64,000 nt of DNA. It comes from Dictyophora rubrovolvata. Its lineage: Eukaryota; Basidiomycota; Agaricomycetes; Phallales; Phallaceae. The first letter of the stretch is position 1; each line of letters opens with the position of its first letter. The position numbers were made by a program, and so were the translations under genes. The notes beneath the pieces are model-generated. The model was not told where the DNA came from. It made no database searches and was given only the letters and a program-made list of their open reading frames with translations. Shown one piece after another: positions 7,950 to 62,220 of this stretch. Location: assembly GCA_029959195.1 (NCBI GenBank), contig CP114127.1, forward strand, positions 558,001 to 622,000, read 5' to 3'.

Positions 7950-8054
7950 GGACCTCTCACGCTCTTACCACTACCATTAAAAACTTCTTAACACACTACC
8001 TCCCTTCACACACATCTAAACAACTAAACTTGATTAGATACCCTTTCCATCCAC

Positions 8055-9698
8055 ATGTCGGCCCCAAACCCGACACAAAAAACAAAGCTTCCATCTGCGA
8101 CAACAGATAAACGAGGAAAGTCAACGAGCGACCCACCAAAGGATGACGACAGCCTTAATAGACGCTCGACAAGATTAGCGACACAGGTTGATAAGTTCGT
8201 GAAACCTAAATGGGAAACCCTACTCGAAGCAAAACAGAATATATTTGATCAAGAGTCAGCATTGAGATATTTAATAGAGTCCGAATACATTGAGGAGACA
8301 ATGACTATAAACCTGGATCATTTGAGCTATGCACTAATGCTTTTTTCAGCCACAACGAACCTCAAAGCCATACAAGAAGGCGTAAGAGCGATTGCAATAT
8401 TACTCAGAGAAAAGAGCAATATCACAAGAGGTGAACTCATCAGTGAGGCATTAGATGAACGACTGACTCCAACAGTGAACCAGCTAACAGAGATAAAAGA
8501 AGAGCTGGGAACAATAGTGAGTCAACTAAAAGAAACCAGCCTAACACAGAGACAGGAAACAACAACATACGCAACAGTGATGAAGAAACCAGCAGAAACC
8601 AGAGGCTCAACAACGGACATCAAAAGAAGACAGATATTGATAGAACAAGAAGGGAGAGGTGAGTACCCCAACGCACTGATAAAACTGACAGAGGTACAAT
8701 TAGTGGCAAAGGCAAATGAAGCAATAAGCATAGCAAAAATAAAGGGAGAAGGGGAATGTAAAATTATAAGTGCAAAGAAGCTACAAAGGGGTGGAGTGGT
8801 ACTGGAACTCAATACAACAGATGCAGCGGACACCATACGACACAAGAAAGCGGAATTCTGCAAGTCATTCAGCCCAACAGCACAACTACGCGAAAGGAAC
8901 TACACAGTGAAACTCAACTTCGTCCCAGTCACACATGATACCAACAGCGAATGGGAAAGACAACGCATCGAGGAACGATCGGGTCTGCAAAATGACCAAC
9001 TAGCGACGACCACATGGATCAAACCGGCAGACCGACGAAGAGAGCATCAAGAAGTCGCAACACTAATAGCCCGATTCAAAAGCCCAGAGGCTGCAAACAA
9101 GGCAATAAGGGAGGGAATGATCATACAGGGAAAAAGGGTAAGAGGAAACAAGATGACTAATGGCCCAATCCGATGCTTCCACTGTCAAAGGTATGGCCAT
9201 TTCGCTGCTAACTGCCCACAGAGACAGGACTCCACAAAGTGCCCGATATGCACTGGACCACACAGAAGAGAGGAATGCGAAGAGACGAGGAAGCAGGATT
9301 TTAAATGCCCCAACTGCAAGAAGAGAGGCCACGCAGCATGGGACCAGGAGTGTGAAACCTATAGAAATCAACTAGAACGACTGATAAAGAAAAATGAAGA
9401 GATACAGTACCGGTTCTACCCAACAAGTGAGAAATGGACATGGGAGAAAGATCCCATATATGAGGTGAGCACTGAAGAAAAAACTGAAATACAAGAAGAG
9501 ACTGCAGGTGAGAGAGTGGACAGTGAGAGTGAAGAGGAGGGAGAAGTGGAAGAAGAGTGGAAGGAAGTACGGCAACGCGGGAAAAAGTCAATGGCAAATC
9601 CAGGCCTAACTCAGACAACCCTAGAAGGTTTTGCATATAGGAAACAGACAAACGATGAAGAGGATATCAACGGGGAGGGCAAAGTAGCCAATGAATAG
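8055..9698 (+). CDS. LINE ORF1, gag-like nucleic-acid-binding protein
   Basis: Uninterrupted 547-aa protein, charged and rich in Glu, Lys and Arg, probably with a coiled coil in the first 180 residues. Three cysteine clusters lie near residues 372-435: CFHCQRYGHFAANC (CCHC), CPICTGPHRREEC and CPNCKKRGHAAWDQEC. These resemble the zinc knuckles of retroelement ORF1 proteins that bind element RNA. The C-terminus is strongly acidic. Its stop TAG at 9696-9698 overlaps the ORF2 start by 8 nt (ATGAATAG), suggesting that ORF2 is translated by termination-reinitiation or frameshifting. Confidence 0.9.
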   Translation: MSAPNPTQKTKLPSATTDKRGKSTSDPPKDDDSLNRRSTRLATQVDKFVKPKWETLLEAKQNIFDQESALRYLIESEYIEETMTINLDHLSYALMLFSATTNLKAIQEGVRAIAILLREKSNITRGELISEALDERLTPTVNQLTEIKEELGTIVSQLKETSLTQRQETTTYATVMKKPAETRGSTTDIKRRQILIEQEGRGEYPNALIKLTEVQLVAKANEAISIAKIKGEGECKIISAKKLQRGGVVLELNTTDAADTIRHKKAEFCKSFSPTAQLRERNYTVKLNFVPVTHDTNSEWERQRIEERSGLQNDQLATTTWIKPADRRREHQEVATLIARFKSPEAANKAIREGMIIQGKRVRGNKMTNGPIRCFHCQRYGHFAANCPQRQDSTKCPICTGPHRREECEETRKQDFKCPNCKKRGHAAWDQECETYRNQLERLIKKNEEIQYRFYPTSEKWTWEKDPIYEVSTEEKTEIQEETAGERVDSESEEEGEVEEEWKEVRQRGKKSMANPGLTQTTLEGFAYRKQTNDEEDINGEGKVANE

Positions 9699-12600
9699 AG
9701 AAACAGGTAACAAACAAACGCAGGAATTACTCACAATCAGACAGCAAAACCTAAACAAGTCAATGATCGCAACACAAAGTATGATAAATACAGTAAGCCC
9801 AACTAACACAGATATAATAGCAGTACAGGAACCGTACCTGGATTTCCTTAAAAGAACCAGAGCAACACGAGCATGGGCCACAGTATATCCAACAAATCAC
9901 AACAGAGATGGAGAAGAAAGGTCGAGAGCTACATTCCTTGTGAATGCGAAGATCAAAGTGTGGCAACAAATACAAGTCAACTCACCAGATATCGTCGCAA
10001 TAAAGGTAACAACAGGTATAGGAGAGATACTGATTGTTAATATATACAGTGATATCGAAAACTCTACTGCAGTTGAAACAGCGGCAGAGATAAGCAAACA
10101 AGAGTCACAAAAGTATGGCGGGAACTTACACATACTATGGGTAGGCGACTTCAACCGGCATCATCCCCTATGGGATGAATTGAGGAATGCACACTTGTTC
10201 ACAAGAGATAATCTTGAAAAAGCGCAAATTCTCATTAATACCACTGATGAATTAGATTTGCAGATGATACTACCGCGTAACATACCTACCCTCAAAGCAT
10301 GGACCACTGGGAACCGAACCAGACCAGACAATGTATTTGCATCTAGAGGAGTAGCACAAAACTTGGTATTTTGCAACTCTATAGAGGATGAAACTCCTGC
10401 ACAAACAGACCATTTTCCTATAATCACAAAACTGACTGTCAATATAGATAAAGCGGTAGACAGGGAAATACTCAACTTCAAAAATACAGATTGGGAGGAG
10501 TTCAGAGAAAACCTGGAGCCCCGGTTAGAGCAAATACAGAGAGAAGAACACATACCAAACAGGAAGGTTTTTGACGAACGTCTCACTACACTGATGAAAG
10601 CTTTAGGTGACACAATCAAGGAGACAGTACCAATAGCGAAGATTACTAGTTTTTCTAAACGTTGGTGGACTAAAGAGCTCACAGTGATGAGCAAAAGCAT
10701 GCGCAGCCTAAGAAACAGAAGTAGAAAAAGACGGCATGATGCAGAAGACCCAGTGCACGACTTACTTCGGACAGAACAGAACAAGTATGCCCAGGCCATA
10801 CGTGATGCAAAACAGTCACATTGGGAAAGCTTTCTAAAAGAAATAGATGAAAAAACCGTATGGGTAGCACACAAGTACGTGACAGGAGAACCTACTGATG
10901 GCGCTAACTCCAAAACTTTATCACTAAAAACCGTCAATCAAAATGGCGAGCAAATCCAAGTAGATCGAGACGAAGAAAAAGCAGACCTCTTCCTCCGAAC
11001 CTTCTTCCCTGATAAAGGAAATTACCCAAAGCCCCCTCAGAGGTACAAATACCCGCCACCTGCATTCGATTTTAAGCCAATAACCAACGAGCAAATAAAA
11101 AGAGCAATTGAGCGATTGAAACCATACAAGGCACCAGGTGAAAGCGGCGTACCTAATGTAGTGCTGATAAAAACAGCAGACCTAATCATCCCAATCCTCG
11201 GCCCACTTTTCCGTGCTACGTTCAGACTGAAATACTTCCCACAAGAGTGGAAGGACTCAACTATTGTGATCCTCAGAAAACCAGGAAAGCCGGACTACAC
11301 AAACCCCAGTGCATACCGCCCAATAGCGTTACTAGACACCATCGGTAAAGTGTTATCATCGTGTGCATCGGAAGATTTACTATACTACGCTGACAAACAC
11401 ACACTCTTGCCACATACCCAATTTGGCTGCAGACCAGGTAGAACCACAACAGATGCAATTCAACACACAGTATCTTTTGTAAAGAATGCCTGGCGTGCGG
11501 GAGACGAAGTGGCAGCACTGTTCCTTGACATAAAAGCGGCTTTCCCTAGTGTATTGCCCGAGTGGTTGGTTCACAGTATGTGAAAGAGAGGGATACCTAA
11601 ACAATATACTGACTGGTTTAGTGAAGTCCTACGCGATCGAAAAACCACCCTCACCTTTGACAAATACAAGTCCACACCAAAGGAGCTGAAGATAGGTCTG
11701 GACCAAGGGCGCCCAGAGTCTGGACCGATTTTTGCATTTTACAATGCAGCAATAGCGGACATAATGGAGGACAAGAAAAAAGAGGAAGTGGTGATATTCG
11801 CCGACGACACAACACTACTAGCAAGAGCCAAAACATTAGAAGACGCAACAGTAAAGTTAGAAGAGATGATGGACAAACTAACGGGACCCAACAAATGGGC
11901 GACCACACACAACTGTGTTTTTGCAATGGACAAATTCGCCCTCATTGGCTTCTCAAGGAAGCGGGAAAGAGATCCGAACAATCCAAGAAAGACAGTCCCT
12001 AAGACCCGTCCAGTGATCCATATAAATGGTGCGGAGATAAAACCCACAACTCACCATAAGTTTCTAGGCATAATTCTAGACGAGGAACTGAGGTTCAAAG
12101 CGCACGCTGACTATGCGCTAAAAAAGGGAGTGACCTGGTTAAGTCAGTACAGATGTCTTGCCAAACCGACGAGAGGAGTCGCTCTAAAGTACATGAGACG
12201 ATATTACCTGACGGTTGCGCTCCCAAAAATGCTATACGCGGCAGAAATCTTTTTGGCGAAAGGGACAACAGGAGTGGTGGGGGCGAGGGGCATGGTAGGG
12301 AAGCTGGCGAAAGTGCAAAGGGAGGCAGCTATCCTAATCACAGGTGCAATGAGAACCACAGCTACTGATGTTTTAGACGTGCATACAAACATCATACCTT
12401 TCAACCTCATGGTAGAGAAGGTGATCCGAAACGCCGGGACAAGGCTAGCTACCTTGCCAAAAACGCATGTCCTGCACAAACAGGTAAAACGCGCAGCGAA
12501 CAGATATGTCAACAGACATAGATCCTCACTCCACGAGGTCATGCACATAGTGGGAGCGGACACAGCCAAATACGAATGCATTAGGCCCCACACCTGGGGG

Positions 12601-13626
12601 CCGAAGTGGGAAAGAAGACACCAGATAGAGATCGCGCCAGACAAGGCAACAGCCAAACAGCAGTTGGATAAGTACAATGGCTATCATGTAGTGTATACGG
12701 ACGGCTCAGGACGGGACGGAAAAATAGGGGCAGCTGCAGTGTACACTGCAGCTAACGGACAGAAACGAATACGGCGGAAGTACCTGGGCCGGGAAACAAA
12801 ACACACAGTCTATGAGGCAGAGTTAACAGGGATACTGTTAGCAATAGACATTGCAAGAGGCATAAGATGGACTAACAGGGTCTATATAATGCTTGACAAT
12901 CAAGCAGCAATAAGGGCGACGGCAAAACAGCAGGCGGGCCCAGGCCAATATTTAGTAGAACTCATCCAAGCGGAGATCGAGGACCTCCACAAAAGGCAGG
13001 GTAAAAATATCACCATAGCGTGGGTGCCAGGACATGAGGAGATAGTGGGAAACGAAGAAGCAGATGAAGAGGCTGCAAAATCAATCACTGAAGGGAACAA
13101 AAACAGCGATCAGATGAAGCACCTACAGAAACTGCCGATTAGTCGATCCGCGGCGAGACAAGCAATGGAAGCAGCTTTGAAAAAACGAGCGGGAGAGAAA
13201 TGGCAAAGCTCGCCACGATATAAGAAGATACGAGATATTGACGAGACTCTACCCGGACCATCCTTCCTAAGAATGATCGCTAAGTGGCCCAGACGAAATA
13301 CTTCAGTACTAATGCAGCTTCGTACAGGACACGCGCAACTAAACGGCCACCTGTATAAGATAGGCAAATCAGCGACCCCAATATGTCCGGCCTGCGAAAT
13401 GGAGACAGAAACCGTAACGCACTTTCTCTCCATATGCCCTCGATACGACACGCACCGCTTGAAGATACAGCGACACTTCAGACAACACACCGTCCCAAAG
13501 ATCCAATTGCTGAAAGATCGAAAAGCGACGAAAGTCCTTTTTGAATACATCAACAAAACAGGTCGCTTCATGCAAACACACGGAAAACTAGACGAACCAA
13601 AAGGGAGACAGAGAGGAGGAGAATGA
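9691..13626 (+). pseudogene. LINE ORF2: endonuclease, reverse transcriptase and RNase H, with one in-frame stop
   Basis: Reads in one frame for 1312 codons apart from a TGA at 11581-11583 (codon 631), which splits it into 630- and about 680-residue parts. Domains in order: AP-type endonuclease (QEPY; GDFNRHHPLWD near residue 152; TDHFPI), reverse transcriptase (YRPIALLDTIGK, LDIKAAFPS, GLDQGRPESG, catalytic FADDTTLL near residue 702, KFLGIILDEE), RNase H (YTDGSG near 1003, YEAELTGI, LDNQAAI, GNEEAD) and a C-terminal CPAC...HFLSICP zinc motif. The stop falls between the LDIKAAF and GLDQGRP blocks. A CGA-to-TGA transition would explain it, as expected from CpG deamination or RIP-like mutation; that cause is inferred. 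This copy probably makes no functional polymerase. Confidence 0.9.
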
Positions 13627-39690: not shown

Positions 39691-42219
39691 TCACGATAAT
39701 AACCGTAAGATAGCACTTGCACCGCCAAGCAAGCAAACGGCAGTCACAAAAGCACCCGAAAGTAAACCTCTCGAACCAGTCGCATCGCTACTTCCGAAAC
39801 TAGTGCTTCCAATCTGATTATTAAGTCCACCATATCCATTCGAAGTTGCAAGTACAGACGGGTTAATAGATGCCGTGTTCTTGACTGACACAGTTGTGAC
39901 GGTTGTCGAAAAGGTTTTTACTTCAGCGGTGTTTATCGCATCAGCCTCTGCCTGTGGAGTAAGGAACACGACAACGACTGAGGGTGCCTGCACCATTACG
40001 GAACAGAGATTGTTAGCTGTGTCGCAAGGAATCGTTTCGGTCACTTGGTCCCCTTGAAGTATACCGTTTGATGTCAGAGGCGGTCCGAATGTCTATAATT
40101 ATGCAGAAAGATATATTAATACACAATCTAAAAAAAAAAACCCAAGAAATTATCACCAACCTGATTAGCATAGTAAAACGGAGCATGATCAGCAGCACTA
40201 TTATTATGCGACGTCAACCGCCTAACGAAGACCTGATTTGGAGAGGCATTAGGCAAATTGAGCCCACTACCATCGATCGCTATCTGGGCGGTATAATCGT
40301 TCGCTCCAGTTGGATCAGTCACGTAGTTAATAAGTACCACCTTGGTAGGTAGGCGGTTTTCATAAATGACGTAACCAGCCATATTGTCATTGTTGCCATT
40401 GAGTTGCAAATCGGCTACTTGGGCTGTCCCAGTCGACCCCAACGCTTCGGCAACGACAATGGCAGAGTATATAACTGGTCCCATCGTCCATCCCATACCT
40501 CTCTTCGCCGCTATCCCAGGCGGTGGCGTAATTGGCTGCAAGGTGTAGTCTTTGAATTTAAAGAAAACGAGACACACGTGCGGGCTTACGTTGTAAACAG
40601 CGTTTTGCCCACCAAGATGATACATAGCGGCAGTAGTATTGATAGTAACCATTTGAAGATCGTAGTCGACGGCCCAGATGGCAGCCAAGAATGCATCAGA
40701 TGTACCAAAGAATCCAGCACACGAAGCGGTGTTCGTTTCTAACATGACATAAGGTTTGTTATGTTGTTCAGCGAGTTGCACGTCCGCTATATATCCGGCG
40801 ACTGCGCTAGTAACAGTACTATGTCCTACATATAGATCAAATGCTTCATCCACCGTAAAGGTTTGATTGGTCGACTATCAAGCAATAAGTGATATGATCT
40901 ACGTAGCAATCCGTAAGACATACGTTGCAATTATTATTAGGATCTTTTTAAAAGGAAGATGAGAACGTTCAGTATATGTCTGACTGCAAAACGAGCGCAA
41001 GTATGCGCGTGTTACTCACAACTGAGCAGGGGGTCAGCAATGCGCAGAAGAAGGACACAAGCAGAATGAACTTACTGTTCAGCAGCAAACCAAGAGAAAC
41101 TGGAATCGAATTGTGACGCAAAGCCGGCATCAAAGACCTGCTCGGGGGTCCATATACAGCAGGTGCTGGGACCCATCAGATTGGTCTTGTTCGGCATACC
41201 GGAGTCACTGCCGATAGCATTGAGCATAATTTGAATATCGTTGACATAATCTGTGGTGTTATAGTCCGGACCACGAAGGCCATGCTTTATTTTATTACAA
41301 AAAAGAAACATAGAGGTCATAATAGGAACAAGATAGGAGAGAAGATGAACTTACGAGACCGTATAGATCAGGTTCGTTTCCAAGCTGGAGTCCTAACAGA
41401 TATTTGCCCAAAATAGCTTCACTGGCATCTCCTATTTCTAGACGTGGGTTCGATGTGTCGTTAAATGGAAGGCCAATAAACCAATAAGTTTCGGTGAGGG
41501 CCGAGATGTTGGCCAACGCATAGATAAGGTCGATACCCACATCAATGGTAGGTGTATCAGTCTACACCAAAGGTGAATTGGGGCACTCAAAGAAGACAAA
41601 GGAAGACACGAACTGGACCATGGACATTGGATTTGTCTTTAGTGATTGTTTCACCCCCGGGTAAACCACCTGGGAAAAAGACAGCTTTTTCCTGAGTGTT
41701 CCCGCCCACACGAATTTTAACTTCACCACTCCTCGCCCTGATAGTCTGCAATACATTAAGGAATGTCGGATTGATATGTGCACTGAAAGAGTGTGTCCAC
41801 TTTTCAGCGCGGATCTTGAAACGAGAAAACTACAAGGCGCATAGCTTACCCACTCTGGCCGACTTTTTTTTTTTGAAAAAGAATCAGCACAAACCCCGAT
41901 ATTCAAATTGTCAGAACAACATACCAACTTGATCTGCAACTGATAATTCAATACTGAGTCCCATATGATTGCCTTGGACTGTCTTGGACATGTTAGGCAA
42001 CGGGGCGGACTGTAATTGGACTACAAAGGGATTGGGAGGTGTAGGGGGCGGTGGTGGTTGGGCCATAGCGAGATCATGGTGAGCGGGTGAAGTGACGAGA
42101 GGCGAAGCGGTTGAAGAGGGTCCTCCTGGTCCAAAAGTGACCTGGGTGTAGATAGTGACGCTGGCTTGGACCGTGGCGATGAGGAAAGGAGAAAAAAGAG
42201 AGACAAGAACGGCCCGCAT
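39691..42219 (-). CDS. GH79 beta-glucuronidase-like glycoside hydrolase, GPI-anchored
   Basis: Family GH79 retaining hydrolase, predicted extracellular. Ten exons give 658 aa with exact phase: 42219-41925, 41862-41850, 41782-41614, 41561-41355, 41284-41076, 41021-41020, 40943-40924, 40874-40590, 40535-40161 and 40092-39691. A signal peptide (MRAVLVSLFSPFLIATVQA) is followed by a Pro-rich linker, the sugar-binding RVGGNTQE, the acid/base E222 in GNEPDLYG and the nucleophile E351 in VMLETNTASC. The C-terminus is Ser/Gly-rich and ends in a hydrophobic segment (FVTAVCLLGGASAILRLLS) typical of GPI anchoring. Exon 6 is only 2 nt: without it a stop follows at once; with it the family motif HYPNNNC (H298-Y299) is restored. 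The gene is therefore intact only if that microexon is used. Confidence 0.88.
41020..41021 (-). other. Putative 2-nt microexon of the GH79 gene
   Basis: The dinucleotide TT (minus strand) sits between a strong acceptor (CCTGCTCAG) and a strong donor (GTGAGT). The flanking introns would be 54 nt (41022-41075) and 76 nt (40944-41019), normal for this window. It turns CA|TT|AT into His-Tyr. Confidence 0.6.
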
Positions 42220-42595: not shown

Positions 42596-43949
42596 TCAAG
42601 TCGATATGGCAAATTTACCTGCATTTGAGCCCGCACTCGCCGACGACGATGCCGCTGTGGTCGTACTGGGCCCGCTAGCAACAGTGGGTGTACTAGAAGT
42701 CGCATTACTAGTCAAAGTCCCCGGCGGCGGTTTTGGCAATCCAGCAATAATCCCTTCAGCATTAACGAAATGCAACCAGTTCTTCATCTCATTCACATTC
42801 TCCTCCCACACAAACTTGGTCGCCTTTCCACCCCGATACAATGCAGACGAACACTGGTACGTTTCTTCCAGTAATAGTCCGTGCCTAACAACGCCAAGAT
42901 TCGCCTTGAACAGTCGGAACTCCCAGCCCAGCAGCGGCTTCCCGTCCACCATCATCGACTCTTCCGGTATATTACAGTCGATTCGGCTATAATCAAAACC
43001 AGCAGGCTGTCCTAAAGCCTTGATGTACGCGGACTTGATCGTGAGTAGAATACATAAACGCCGTAAAATTACTTCATCTTTCAGCTTGCCATCCAGAACC
43101 AATTCCTCATTCGGAGTTAGCTAAATGGGGTTTCAAAACCATCATCAATGTTAGTAAAGTGACATGACATGACAAGCAGCAGGAAGAGTCGCACGCACCT
43201 TGTGGGCAAAGGAATCGGCAAACTTACGAGCAGAAATCCCACGCGGTACGATGAGTTGCATGATGTCGATTCCAATGTTAATTACTTGAGGCTTATTACC
43301 ATATGCAAACGCTATCGTCACCAGCGAATCGCCTCTCGCTGTATCATAGCCAAAGACCTGGGTGGAATCTGCACAACCCTACTTTGAGATAAGAACGGCA
43401 TTCCACGTTACCGGAATACGAAACGAGGAAAAGAAGAAAGAATAGGGTGTGGAGGGCGAGAAAGAAAGAAAGAAAGAAAGAAAGGTTAAGCTTACAAAGT
43501 AATCTTTCCCGTTTTTGGTGACATTATGACACCACTGCGAAGGTGGTACAGTAGGATGTTCTCGCCACAGAACAACGGAAGGTAATAGCTTCGAAAGAAC
43601 ATATCCTAAAGAGCACACTATCTTGAGGGATATAAAAACAGGACGAGAAACCAATGGACACATACTAAAAGCATCATTTCTATTAGCAAACTTTTCAGCC
43701 TTTACTCGCGCTTTAGGGTCTACCAAGTTCAGACATGTGGCAAACTCCTAGAAAACTACTAGCTCAGAAAAATAACCACAATCTCAGATAATGTTTACGA
43801 CAAACCTCTCTCGAAATTTTCCTATTTATCGATACAGCCCATATTTGCATGAATGGTTGGACCCCGTTGACAGTGCTCGCATCCTGCGCTGGCACCAAGG
43901 TGGTAGTAGTAGTAGTAGTCATGGACATGGAAGGTACGTTTTCAGACAT
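42596..43949 (-). CDS. Sfp-type 4'-phosphopantetheinyl transferase-like protein
   Basis: Enzymes of this family transfer phosphopantetheine from CoA to carrier domains of polyketide, non-ribosomal or lysine-biosynthesis proteins. The spliced model starts MSENVPSMSMTTTTTT (an alternative ATG lies at 43928) and reads MQIWAVSINRKISREEFATC, NRNDAFSIVCSLGYVLSKLL, WCHNVTKNGKDYF, then DSLVTIAFAYGN...GIDIM and LTIKSAYIKALGQPAGFD. GIDIM and the K-x2-A-Y-I-K-A-L-G block are the two family signatures. Oddities: the glutamate of the usual KEA/KES magnesium-binding motif is serine here (KSA), the preceding Trp is missing, and the protein ends in an unusual Ser/Thr/Ala-rich tail. It may be divergent or catalytically weak. 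Confidence 0.7.
43461..43484. repeat. (AAAG)6 microsatellite in an intron of the phosphopantetheinyl transferase-like gene
   Basis: Perfect tetranucleotide tract inside the intron after KDYF. Further ACA/AGT-type triplet tracts lie at 43900-44060 upstream. Confidence 0.8.
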
Positions 43950-58669: not shown

Positions 58670-61600
58670 TCAATCCATGGGCTGCATCATGGACTCGAAC
58701 ATCTCCACTATAGAATTAGCAGAGTCAGTGGAGTTTGAATTTGAATCGAACATATTGCTGGAGTCGTCCCTGTTCCAATAGCTGGGAAGCATGGGTGGAT
58801 GCACGTAACCAGGCATGGGAGACTGGTGCCCTTGCGGTAACATCTGGGGCTGTATGTACGACATCATCGTTACGTCTTCGTTAGGAAGCATCTGAGGATG
58901 AATATAGGAGTTTGATGACATTTCCGAAGGAAGCACCATGGGCGGATGGAAACCAGGTGGAACCACGTCGTCGGGAATAGCCATAGGCGGATGCAATTTC
59001 TCCCATGAATAGTTTTCATATCCATCGTAAGATGAGTAAATGGAAGAGAATGGTAAAGAGTAGACTGAGAATGTCGGCGAAGCACCGGGGGACCTGCTAC
59101 TGCTGTTTAAGGAAGTAGCTGAAGGGGGCGGATCAGTAGGCGGTGAAGAACTCTCATGAGAAGCTGACGAAAGACGGCGACGCTTGTTGTTTCCCTCAAT
59201 GCTGTACGCCGAGGATTCCCCATTGATCGACGTCTGGATCGGTGGAAGGTCGGAAACGGACGAGGTATATTGATACAGGTAGTCCGGATGGTACGGTCCG
59301 GGGAAATATGGGAAATTGTTGCCGCCACCGCCACTGTTGCTACTATTAACATTATCACCGTTAGTATTGTTGTTATTAGAAGTCGTAGACGTAGTAGCGT
59401 TGCCTCCGCCGCCGCCGTTGCTATTATTGTTTCTAATATTATTCGCTTCTTGGTCTTGCAAAATGGTAGAGCTCAACATCGTGTCGTTCGCAATCGAGGT
59501 TTCTTTCGTACCGTAGTCCGCTCTTGAAGACGAACCGGCAGGTGTGGACGTGTAGTCGTAAGAAAACTGTGGAGTTTTCTGTTCGTCTTGTGATTGCTCA
59601 TCCTCAGTGACTGCAGCAGGCTGAGGGCTTGGAACTCGGGCGGGTGAAGTCCGCCGACTGGCACCGGGGCTAGCAGAGTGAATCTCAGAACTAGAACGAA
59701 CCAAGCCAGCGCGTTTTAACTCGTGCCTTGATCGTTTACGAACAACATCCGACTTCATAGACAATGGACGATTAGTCCCGTGAAGCTTGTAACTAAAAAA
59801 AATCGCACAATAATTAGCCCAGTTTGTAAAGCCGAGATTTTTAAAAGGAGAAACTTACTACAACCCACAACTGCACAAAAGAAAAAAAAAAGACGGGAAA
59901 GTAAAGGCTTCACGAACCTGTTCGGTAATCTTAAAGGGTGGATTTAAAACTTACGCATTGCAAACAGTTTTGCCTTCGTCGTCTTTACGCCATAGAGGTG
60001 TAGCTGTCGTGTGGCAGTTGAAGCATTTCGCTGCTGGAAAAATATCAGAAATCCAACAAAAAGCAAAACAAAACGATCGGTTTCCGTACCGCCAACTACT
60101 TCTGCGTCAACCGAACGAGTATGGGAATGATGCCCACCCCGAGTATTGTCACCGCTCTGAGTCCTCATGGTCTTGGGACGGGGGCGTTTATGCTAATAAT
60201 GGAACTATATGAGTAACAGATAATAGTCAGAAATACAAGCTTTATCCTTGCCAATTTGCAGTAAAGACCGCAAGCATTGCAGTTGAGTTCGTCATTTAAT
60301 CCTCGACGCCACAGAGGAGTATGAGTAGCTCCGCAGTTCGAGCACTCGGTCTTGGTTCCGGCAGGAGTAGAAATAGGAATTACGGTCGCACCTGGTGCAT
60401 TTGACGGTCTTGTAGAAGTTGAAGTAGGTGCGGGGCTGGAAGATGGAGGATTGTTCATTAAGGCCATGGGGTTTAAGGTAGTCGCCTGAGCCTGAGCCTG
60501 AGTTTGAGTTTGAGCCTGAGTCTGAGTCTGAGTCTGAGTGGTATTGGAAGAAACAGAAGATTGCCGTTGACGAGAATTGGTGGAGGAACGTCTAGAGAGA
60601 TAGGAAGGAGAAACGTAGGGAGAAGACGAGGATGAAGTTGAAGGCTGTTGCTGCTGCTGCACCACCGCAGTCTCCATTACTACTTGTGGCTGCTGGGGTG
60701 CGACAGTCTTGGTGGTGGTCGCAGCCGCAGCAGCAAGACGAGAATTTTCAGCTTCGATCCACTTGGCCATTTCGAAGCTGGTGGAATCGAATACGGTGTT
60801 AGACTCGGTGGGTTCTTGTTTGGAAACAATGGCATTCGCAGTCACGTTTGCGGTTGCGGTTACGTTTGTATTCGGGGTCGTAGTCGTGGTAGTGTCGTTA
60901 TTATCGTTAGGAGAAGGTTGATCAGAAACGCTGTTTTCTTTCATGGTTCGGTCACTCTGGGAGTTAGCAGCATTGGCTTCCTCTTCAGCAGCCTGGGCGG
61001 CCTGGGACGCATCAATGGAAGCAAGAACTTGCTCCCAGCAGGTGGGACTCCCGCCTTCCACTTCCAAGAGCTCGTCCAGCGGTAGCTCTATCGTCGGTCT
61101 GGAAATACCCAGTCCAGAGCTGGGGGAAACTTCGTTAATGTACGTCATCGGAACATCTTCACCGTAGGTCTGGGTAGGCGCATAAGAAGGGGACGGATAA
61201 AGGATTGCTGTAGGACCGAAGTTACTGGAGAAGATGCTGGGAAGGCGAACAGCAGCCTGCTGGGGATGATAATGAGAAGTCGAGGAAGAGTAATTATTGG
61301 ACCGGGTGATGGTAGTAGCGTTCTCGTTGGGGGAAAAGGGTGTAGAAGTAACTTCGGCCATAGGTTGATCTTCATCATTGGACCTGCCGTCAGACCCATC
61401 GCCATTACCGTTCGGGAGCTGACCATGCGCCGAAGAAGCATTGACGTTTTTGGAGATGACACTAAGATTGACTTTAAGAGCCGGCTCCTTGAACGTCGTT
61501 TGCTGCTTCTTGCCGGTGGCAGGGGATACGGCAAGCTTGGACTTGGTTCCATTGACGACGACGGGAGGCGAGAGACCGTTCGGGGCGGTCGTGGAAGTGG

Positions 61601-62220
61601 GCGCAGATGATGCAGTCGTACCGGTAGCTGGCTGGCTGGGAGTGGGATTATCGAGGGAAAAGGTGAACTGCATGCGACGAATGCCGCCGGAGTGTGCGGC
61701 ACCTTCGCGAAGTCGTTCGATTTCTTCAGCGCGGCGTCGCATCTTGTCTGAGGATTGGGTACGCTTGTACCCGGGAGCACGAAGCTCTTCAATATTCCTG
61801 AATGGATAGGTAAGATACCGTTGAAGCGCCTAGCGGCGGGTGAGGAAGGGGATGGACGAGGACGAACTTTCCCTTTTCTCTGTCGAGCTTGTCACCCATA
61901 TTCCTGGAGAGTTTCTTGAATTCGCGCTTGGACTTTGCATTGTCGGATTCGACCATGATGTTGTGGAGGTGCCAAAGCCGCCAGCTGAGGTTCTCAAGAC
62001 GTTGTCCCTGCTCGAGATGGGCAGCGACCTTGGTGCATACTTTCCATGTTTTGGTGAGCGAGTCGCCGTCGTTCATGTTGTGAAAGGCGACAAAAGACTT
62101 GTTGCCCTGGAAAAGAGAGCAAAATAAAAATATATAAATCACGGCATGAATATGGGGCTTTTAAAAGAAAAACAAAGGCAGCAGGCAACGTGCCTTGAAC
62201 TTGAGAATGAAGGGCGCCAT
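58670..62220 (-). CDS. AreA-like transcription factor: DUF1752 plus two GATA zinc fingers
   Basis: Nuclear regulator of 1042 aa in seven exons (62220-62194, 62106-61868, 61797-60252, 60192-60090, 60033-59955, 59870-59859, 59792-58670), phases exact. The N-terminal DUF1752 region contains DGDSLTKTWKVCTKVA and RLENLSWRLW, as in AreA/Nit2-type nitrogen regulators, followed by GGIRRMQFTFSLD. Finger 1 has C574-x2-C577-x17-C595-x2-C598 (CSNCGATHTPLWRR). Finger 2 has C642, C645, C663 and C666 (CFNCHTTATPLWRK), followed by YKLHGTNRPLSMKSDVVRKR. Between and after them are Gln/Thr/Asn-rich low-complexity regions. Introns 1 and 3 seem to use GC donors; for intron 3 a GT donor 15 nt downstream is possible and would add five residues. 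Target genes (nitrogen or iron) are not determinable here. Confidence 0.87.
59859..59870 (-). other. 12-nt microexon of the GATA factor gene
   Basis: Flanked by an acceptor (TTTTGTGCAG) and a donor (GTAAGT). It encodes the end of Ala665, Cys666 (last zinc ligand of finger 2), Gly, Leu and the start of Tyr. Skipping it would remove a zinc ligand. Confidence 0.8.
60485..60539 (-). repeat. Hexanucleotide repeat coding (T/A)Q in the GATA factor
   Basis: About nine CTGAGY units on the plus strand; on the coding strand they give an alternating TQ/AQ tract. Likely length-variable between strains. Confidence 0.8.

Follow-up and report, generated by a model that had tools for sequence, protein, structure and literature searches.

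A predicted two-nucleotide exon in a GH79-type glycoside hydrolase gene of Dictyophora rubrovolvata

Gene structure and the predicted two-nucleotide exon

The window (the whole stretch of 64,000 nucleotides of Dictyophora rubrovolvata DNA analyzed here) contains on its minus strand what is best explained, as far as the sequence can tell, as an intact GH79-type glycoside hydrolase gene whose predicted sixth exon consists of only two nucleotides, TT. We give this reading a probability of about 0.84. The gene runs from 42219 to 39691 and, with TT included, its ten exons code for 658 amino acids followed by a stop codon, with no internal stops. The exons and the two introns that flank TT are the following:

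Exon 1, 41925 to 42219, minus strand: 295 nt, with the start codon at 42219
Exon 2, 41850 to 41862, minus strand: microexon of 13 nt
Exon 3, 41614 to 41782, minus strand: 169 nt
Exon 4, 41355 to 41561, minus strand: 207 nt, carries the GNEPD motif
Exon 5, 41076 to 41284, minus strand: 209 nt, ends in phase 2 with GAACA
Intron 5, 41022 to 41075, minus strand: 54 nt, GTAAGT donor and CTCAG acceptor, GTAAGT...CTGACCCCCTGCTCAG
Exon 6, 41020 to 41021, minus strand: predicted microexon of 2 nt, TT, supplying the last base of the His298 codon and the first of the Tyr299 codon
Intron 6, 40944 to 41019, minus strand: 76 nt, GTGAGT donor and AAAAAG acceptor, GTGAGT...CTTTTAAAAAG
Exon 7, 40924 to 40943, minus strand: 20 nt, starts with ATCCTAATAATAATTGCAAC and codes for the remainder of the Tyr plus PNNNCN
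Exon 8, 40590 to 40874, minus strand: 285 nt, carries the ETN motif
Exon 9, 40161 to 40535, minus strand: 375 nt, most of the PF16862 match, last residue 525
Exon 10, 39691 to 40092, minus strand: 402 nt including the stop codon, hydrophobic C-terminal tail

The observation behind this gene model is confirmed. Exon 5 ends with GCT GCT GAA CA at 41076, in phase 2, and exon 7 starts with ATCCT at 40943, both as read in the original prediction, and 132 nt lie between them. Joining the two exons directly leads, as had been stated, to an immediate stop, the protein breaking off as AAEQS followed by three stop codons in a row. Within the 132 nt, a TT at 41021-41020 is found between CAG and GTGAGT, and its inclusion closes the His codon (CA+T) and opens the Tyr codon (T+AT). 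The claim that these two bases restore the frame held over all ten exons, i.e., 658 codons plus the stop. Six internal GT-AG exons are possible in the 132 nt when the flanking introns are set to at least 35 nt and the exon to at most 60 nt, and the frame stays open with TT only. This leads to a clear prediction for the cDNA, which should read GAACATTATCCT across the TT exon. Apart from TT, the same gene has two other microexons, of 13 nt (41862-41850) and 20 nt (40943-40924).

It might be that only a share of the transcripts includes TT, with skipping leading to an immediate stop, so that the exon would switch the enzyme on and off. Such a role is compatible with the presence of the 2-nt exon, and the AAEQS truncation obtained by skipping is what it would need; furthermore, a switch-like microexon of 20 nt is known from Trichoderma Xlr2, as far as the available part of the source describes it. 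Nevertheless, the loss of any exon whose length is not divisible by three disrupts the frame, so positive evidence would be needed, and we consider regulated inclusion unlikely.

Relatives and conserved residues

The spliced protein matches PF16862 (Glyco_hydro_79C) at residues 454-566 with an E value of 1.1e-12 and 49.1 bits (the cut-off being 27), and AcGlcA79A, the solved GH79 beta-glucuronidase of Acidobacterium capsulatum (3vny, 5g0m), matches it at 1.3e-14. The two proteins share, besides this sequence relation, the GNEPD and ETN motifs and a Tyr at the place of the TT exon, and they differ in that the bacterial enzyme reads H-Y-Y where the window protein reads E-H-Y. Judged by eye from its N-terminus, the protein appears to be secreted. 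Its C-terminus (39691-39800, minus strand) combines a stretch rich in Ser and Gly with a hydrophobic tail, which together, also by eye, resemble a GPI-anchor signal.

A PF16862 search of the whole genome (11 contigs, 28.2 Mb) gave four loci, C2, C9, C10 and C11, the last one being the window gene. The other three paralogues were spliced by hand from homology and frame, and C2 could be fitted in part only. The hand-made model of C9 uses an exon of 23 nt, and the C10 paralogue (L015, C10:667001-674000, positions 4083-2307, minus strand) is close to the solved 4-O-alpha-L-rhamnosyl-beta-D-glucuronidase 7dfq (2.2e-106). Queried as a single sequence, the spliced protein found no relatives in the prokaryote genomes or viral contigs scanned; through a five-sequence alignment, 92 bacterial relatives were found, 80 of which were retained, and all 80 were used.

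The Glu of GNE and the Glu of ETN are both intact and fall in columns that are invariant across five aligned sequences; we take the one in GNEPD (exon 4) to be the acid/base and the one in ETN (exon 8) to be the nucleophile. The Tyr completed by TT is equally constant, being Tyr in all 80 bacterial relatives used, in the three paralogues and in AcGlcA79A (residue 243 by count). The spacing Tyr-x4-Cys is present in 3/3 paralogues, and the Cys is absent from many of the bacterial relatives. Of the HYPNNNC motif expected at this place by the original prediction, the relatives compared here bear out the Tyr and, in the paralogues, the Y-x4-C spacing; the motif seen in them is H-x-Y. The family His is located two residues before the Tyr (H-x-Y) in 80/80 bacterial relatives, 3/3 paralogues and AcGlcA79A, and the window protein has a Glu there, reading E-H-Y-P with its own His outside the His column. 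This replacement may be a trait of a subfamily; presumably, many mushroom GH79 proteins have E-H-Y-P at this place. Fifteen columns reach 95% conservation or more in the bacterial set, and the H-x-Y His is the only one of them in which the window protein alone departs. It matches 9 of the 15, compared with 10 for C9, 12 for C10 and 7 for the partial C2 (three of the C2 misses are gaps), so that the window gene is not strikingly degraded.

These data bear on the possibility that the gene is dead or dying, with its frame lost at the junction of exons 5 and 7 and the TT placed between CAG and GTGAGT by coincidence. The missing H-x-Y His, present in all the other sequences compared, would fit such decay. 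To see how easily coincidence could produce the exon, we took random 132-nt segments from 264 kb of the genome (both strands) and dinucleotide shuffles of the stretch, and counted the cases having a consensus acceptor with an upstream CTRAY, a consensus donor and, between them, an exon of at most 20 nt that brings back the frame. The search was prompted by the frame break, and the figures, being post hoc, should be read as guides rather than as clean P values: a frame-restoring exon appeared in 282 of 200,000 genomic segments and in 125 of 50,000 shuffles, and one yielding EHYPNNN in 11 of 200,000 segments (a pool that includes the real site, which could explain all 11) and in 19 of 50,000 shuffles. 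The scarcity of the last class argues against coincidence. Since, in addition, the rest of the coding sequence is open, with 658 codons over 10 exons once TT is included, and both the GNEPD and the ETN motif are in place, a dead gene is disfavored and appears quite improbable.

Splice sites and alternative paths

Splice sites were scored with a model built from 25 other GH79 introns, all from the four genes and positioned with homology and the reading frame as guides. Introns predicted ab initio in 264 kb of the genome were tried for this purpose and rejected; they amounted to only 4 introns, or to 21 versus 5 in a reversed-sequence control, and in larger sets the reversed control was too high (e.g., 72 versus 19). 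Of the 25 curated donors, 21 score no higher than the donor of intron 5 and 10 no higher than that of intron 6. The acceptor of intron 5 is weak, with only 1 of the 25 curated acceptors as low or lower (9 in the case of intron 6), and its score is reached by 27% of all the AG sites in 264 kb, both strands considered. Intron 5 has a branch-like site, CTGAC, with its A located 12 nt before the end of the intron. In intron 6 there is no branch-like match to YTRAY, as is also the case in 9 of the 25 other introns. Both flanks of TT are nonetheless canonical GT-AG introns, and their lengths of 54 and 76 nt fall inside the 44-79 nt range of the other 25, while a single intron of 132 nt would fall outside it.

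We listed GT-AG paths leading from within exon 5 to within exon 8 through up to three introns of 40-180 nt. Among the 1561 paths obtained, 98 are in frame without a stop, and the best mean site score of these (11.67) belongs to the TT path. Ranked by the worst site, it ties with a second path that also uses TT, with a donor at 41090 and WFAAEH dropped. YPNNNC is retained in 8 of the 98 paths, six of which use TT; the other two depend on a weak donor at 41117, lose SQFDSSFSWFAAEH and score 5.86 and 1.2. None of these eight in-frame paths places a His at the H-x-Y column of the family, and a search for a 5-nt exon able to give H-x-Y found none with AG and GT flanks. Together with the open coding sequence and the GNEPD and ETN motifs, the top mean score of the TT path and the family-invariant Tyr that it restores at the Y-x4-C spacing support the preference of the original prediction for a spliced 2-nt exon over a dead gene.

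Only 5 of the 98 paths leave both exon 8 and the end of exon 5 whole, namely the TT path and four others that skip TT. The transcript could in principle follow one of these four, for instance 41075-40984 plus 40919-40875 (AAEHQTYTERSHLPFKKILIIIATYSTNQ) or 41075-40980 plus 40966-40875 (AAEQHILNSTNQ), the first of which even retains a Tyr, with a His three residues before it. However, Y-x4-C is lost in all four and found in the TT path only, their mean scores range from 3.57 to 8.15 versus 11.67, and each of them includes a very weak site (worst score at most 0.2 versus 3.66 for the TT path), which makes them very unlikely substitutes. As for an assembly error, a small indel disrupting a simpler gene structure, there is one assembly only, but the two introns flanking TT have normal lengths and canonical ends and an intron is present at this very position in the C2 paralogue, so that we regard an error as extremely improbable.

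Mechanism and origin

Inclusion of the predicted TT exon would require two short introns of ordinary type (54 and 76 nt) to be recognized by intron definition and excised in succession, since an acceptor and a donor only 2 nt apart could hardly both be occupied at the same time. Intron definition with removal in turn has been proposed for a 1-nt exon of Arabidopsis (PMC4674806, available text). Exons of one or two bases probe how small an exon the spliceosome is able to define.

Intron 5 coincides in column and phase with the third intron in the fitted part of the C2 paralogue, both interrupting, in phase 2, the codon that precedes the Tyr. Such exact coincidences are few among the aligned introns of the four genes: this one and one C9/C10 pair. 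That intron 5 shares its position and phase with an intron of a paralogue suggests that intron 6 is the later one. Most likely, there was an older intron at this place and a second one was inserted 2 nt downstream, leaving the 2-nt exon in between. The gain of a second intron beside the old one would be the simplest history, although C2 might equally well have had both introns and lost the second. When the genome was searched for further copies of intron 6 (with common words skipped), only intron 6 itself was retrieved, with no sign of a repeated introner element. C2, in which one intron occupies this place, offers a natural case for comparing the ways in which such exons originate. A more elaborate version, in which the insertion 2 nt downstream of the ancestral GH79 intron was followed by use of the new exon as an inclusion-rate switch, seems doubtful; if true, skipping two bases would halt translation at once, and the rate of inclusion would set the amount of enzyme.

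Comparison with known ultra-short exons

Exons of one or two bases are readily missed by gene finders and short-read aligners, and the genes that contain them therefore seem broken. The original prediction considered them extremely rare. They are indeed of a very rare kind, but 1-nt exons have already been proven elsewhere, one fungus included. In the available text of PMC12940212, the CYP621A P450 genes of Fusarium are described as having a 1-nt exon that RNA reads confirm and that is conserved across 20 Fusarium orthologues. What pointed to it was a mismatch in phase together with an intron of 139 nt, too long against the median of 56, and a relative devoid of introns served as a length marker. 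The parallel is close, since in both cases a fungal enzyme gene has an ultra-short exon inside a conserved motif and the same reasoning led to it, but the GH79 exon has 2 nt and is predicted from the sequence of one genome. The plant genes APC11 and VPS55 have 1-nt exons that are experimentally verified and conserved across land plants, according to the portions available of PMC4674806 and PMC8831610. There, too, an exon of one or two nucleotides is located between two introns and was overlooked by annotation, the difference being that the GH79 exon is fungal and predicted. The P450 genes of the basidiomycete Phanerochaete chrysosporium have many tiny exons and small introns, similar to this enzyme gene, with 6 bp as the shortest exon given in the accessible text (PMC1184071). 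Exons of 2-5 bp are known in Arabidopsis, Drosophila and humans, again following the available text of PMC12940212, and in what is accessible of PMC3990503 and PMC4014442, microexons appear only as an aligner setting. Among the matches listed (titles and beginnings of abstracts, with most subscription journals outside the scope), there was no 2-nt exon in a fungus. The TT of the GH79 gene is thus a rare, predicted addition to the 1-2 nt exons already known.

Other features of the window

Upstream of the GH79 gene and on the same strand, an ORF at 42599-43120 (minus strand) gave no Pfam matches at an E value of 0.001. Another minus-strand ORF (60168-61829) has a GATA zinc finger close to its end. 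On the plus strand, an ORF at 1546-2340 contains a GMC oxidoreductase C-terminal domain, and adjoining long ORFs at 8034-13623 with a zinc knuckle, endonuclease, reverse transcriptase and RNase H resemble a non-LTR retrotransposon.
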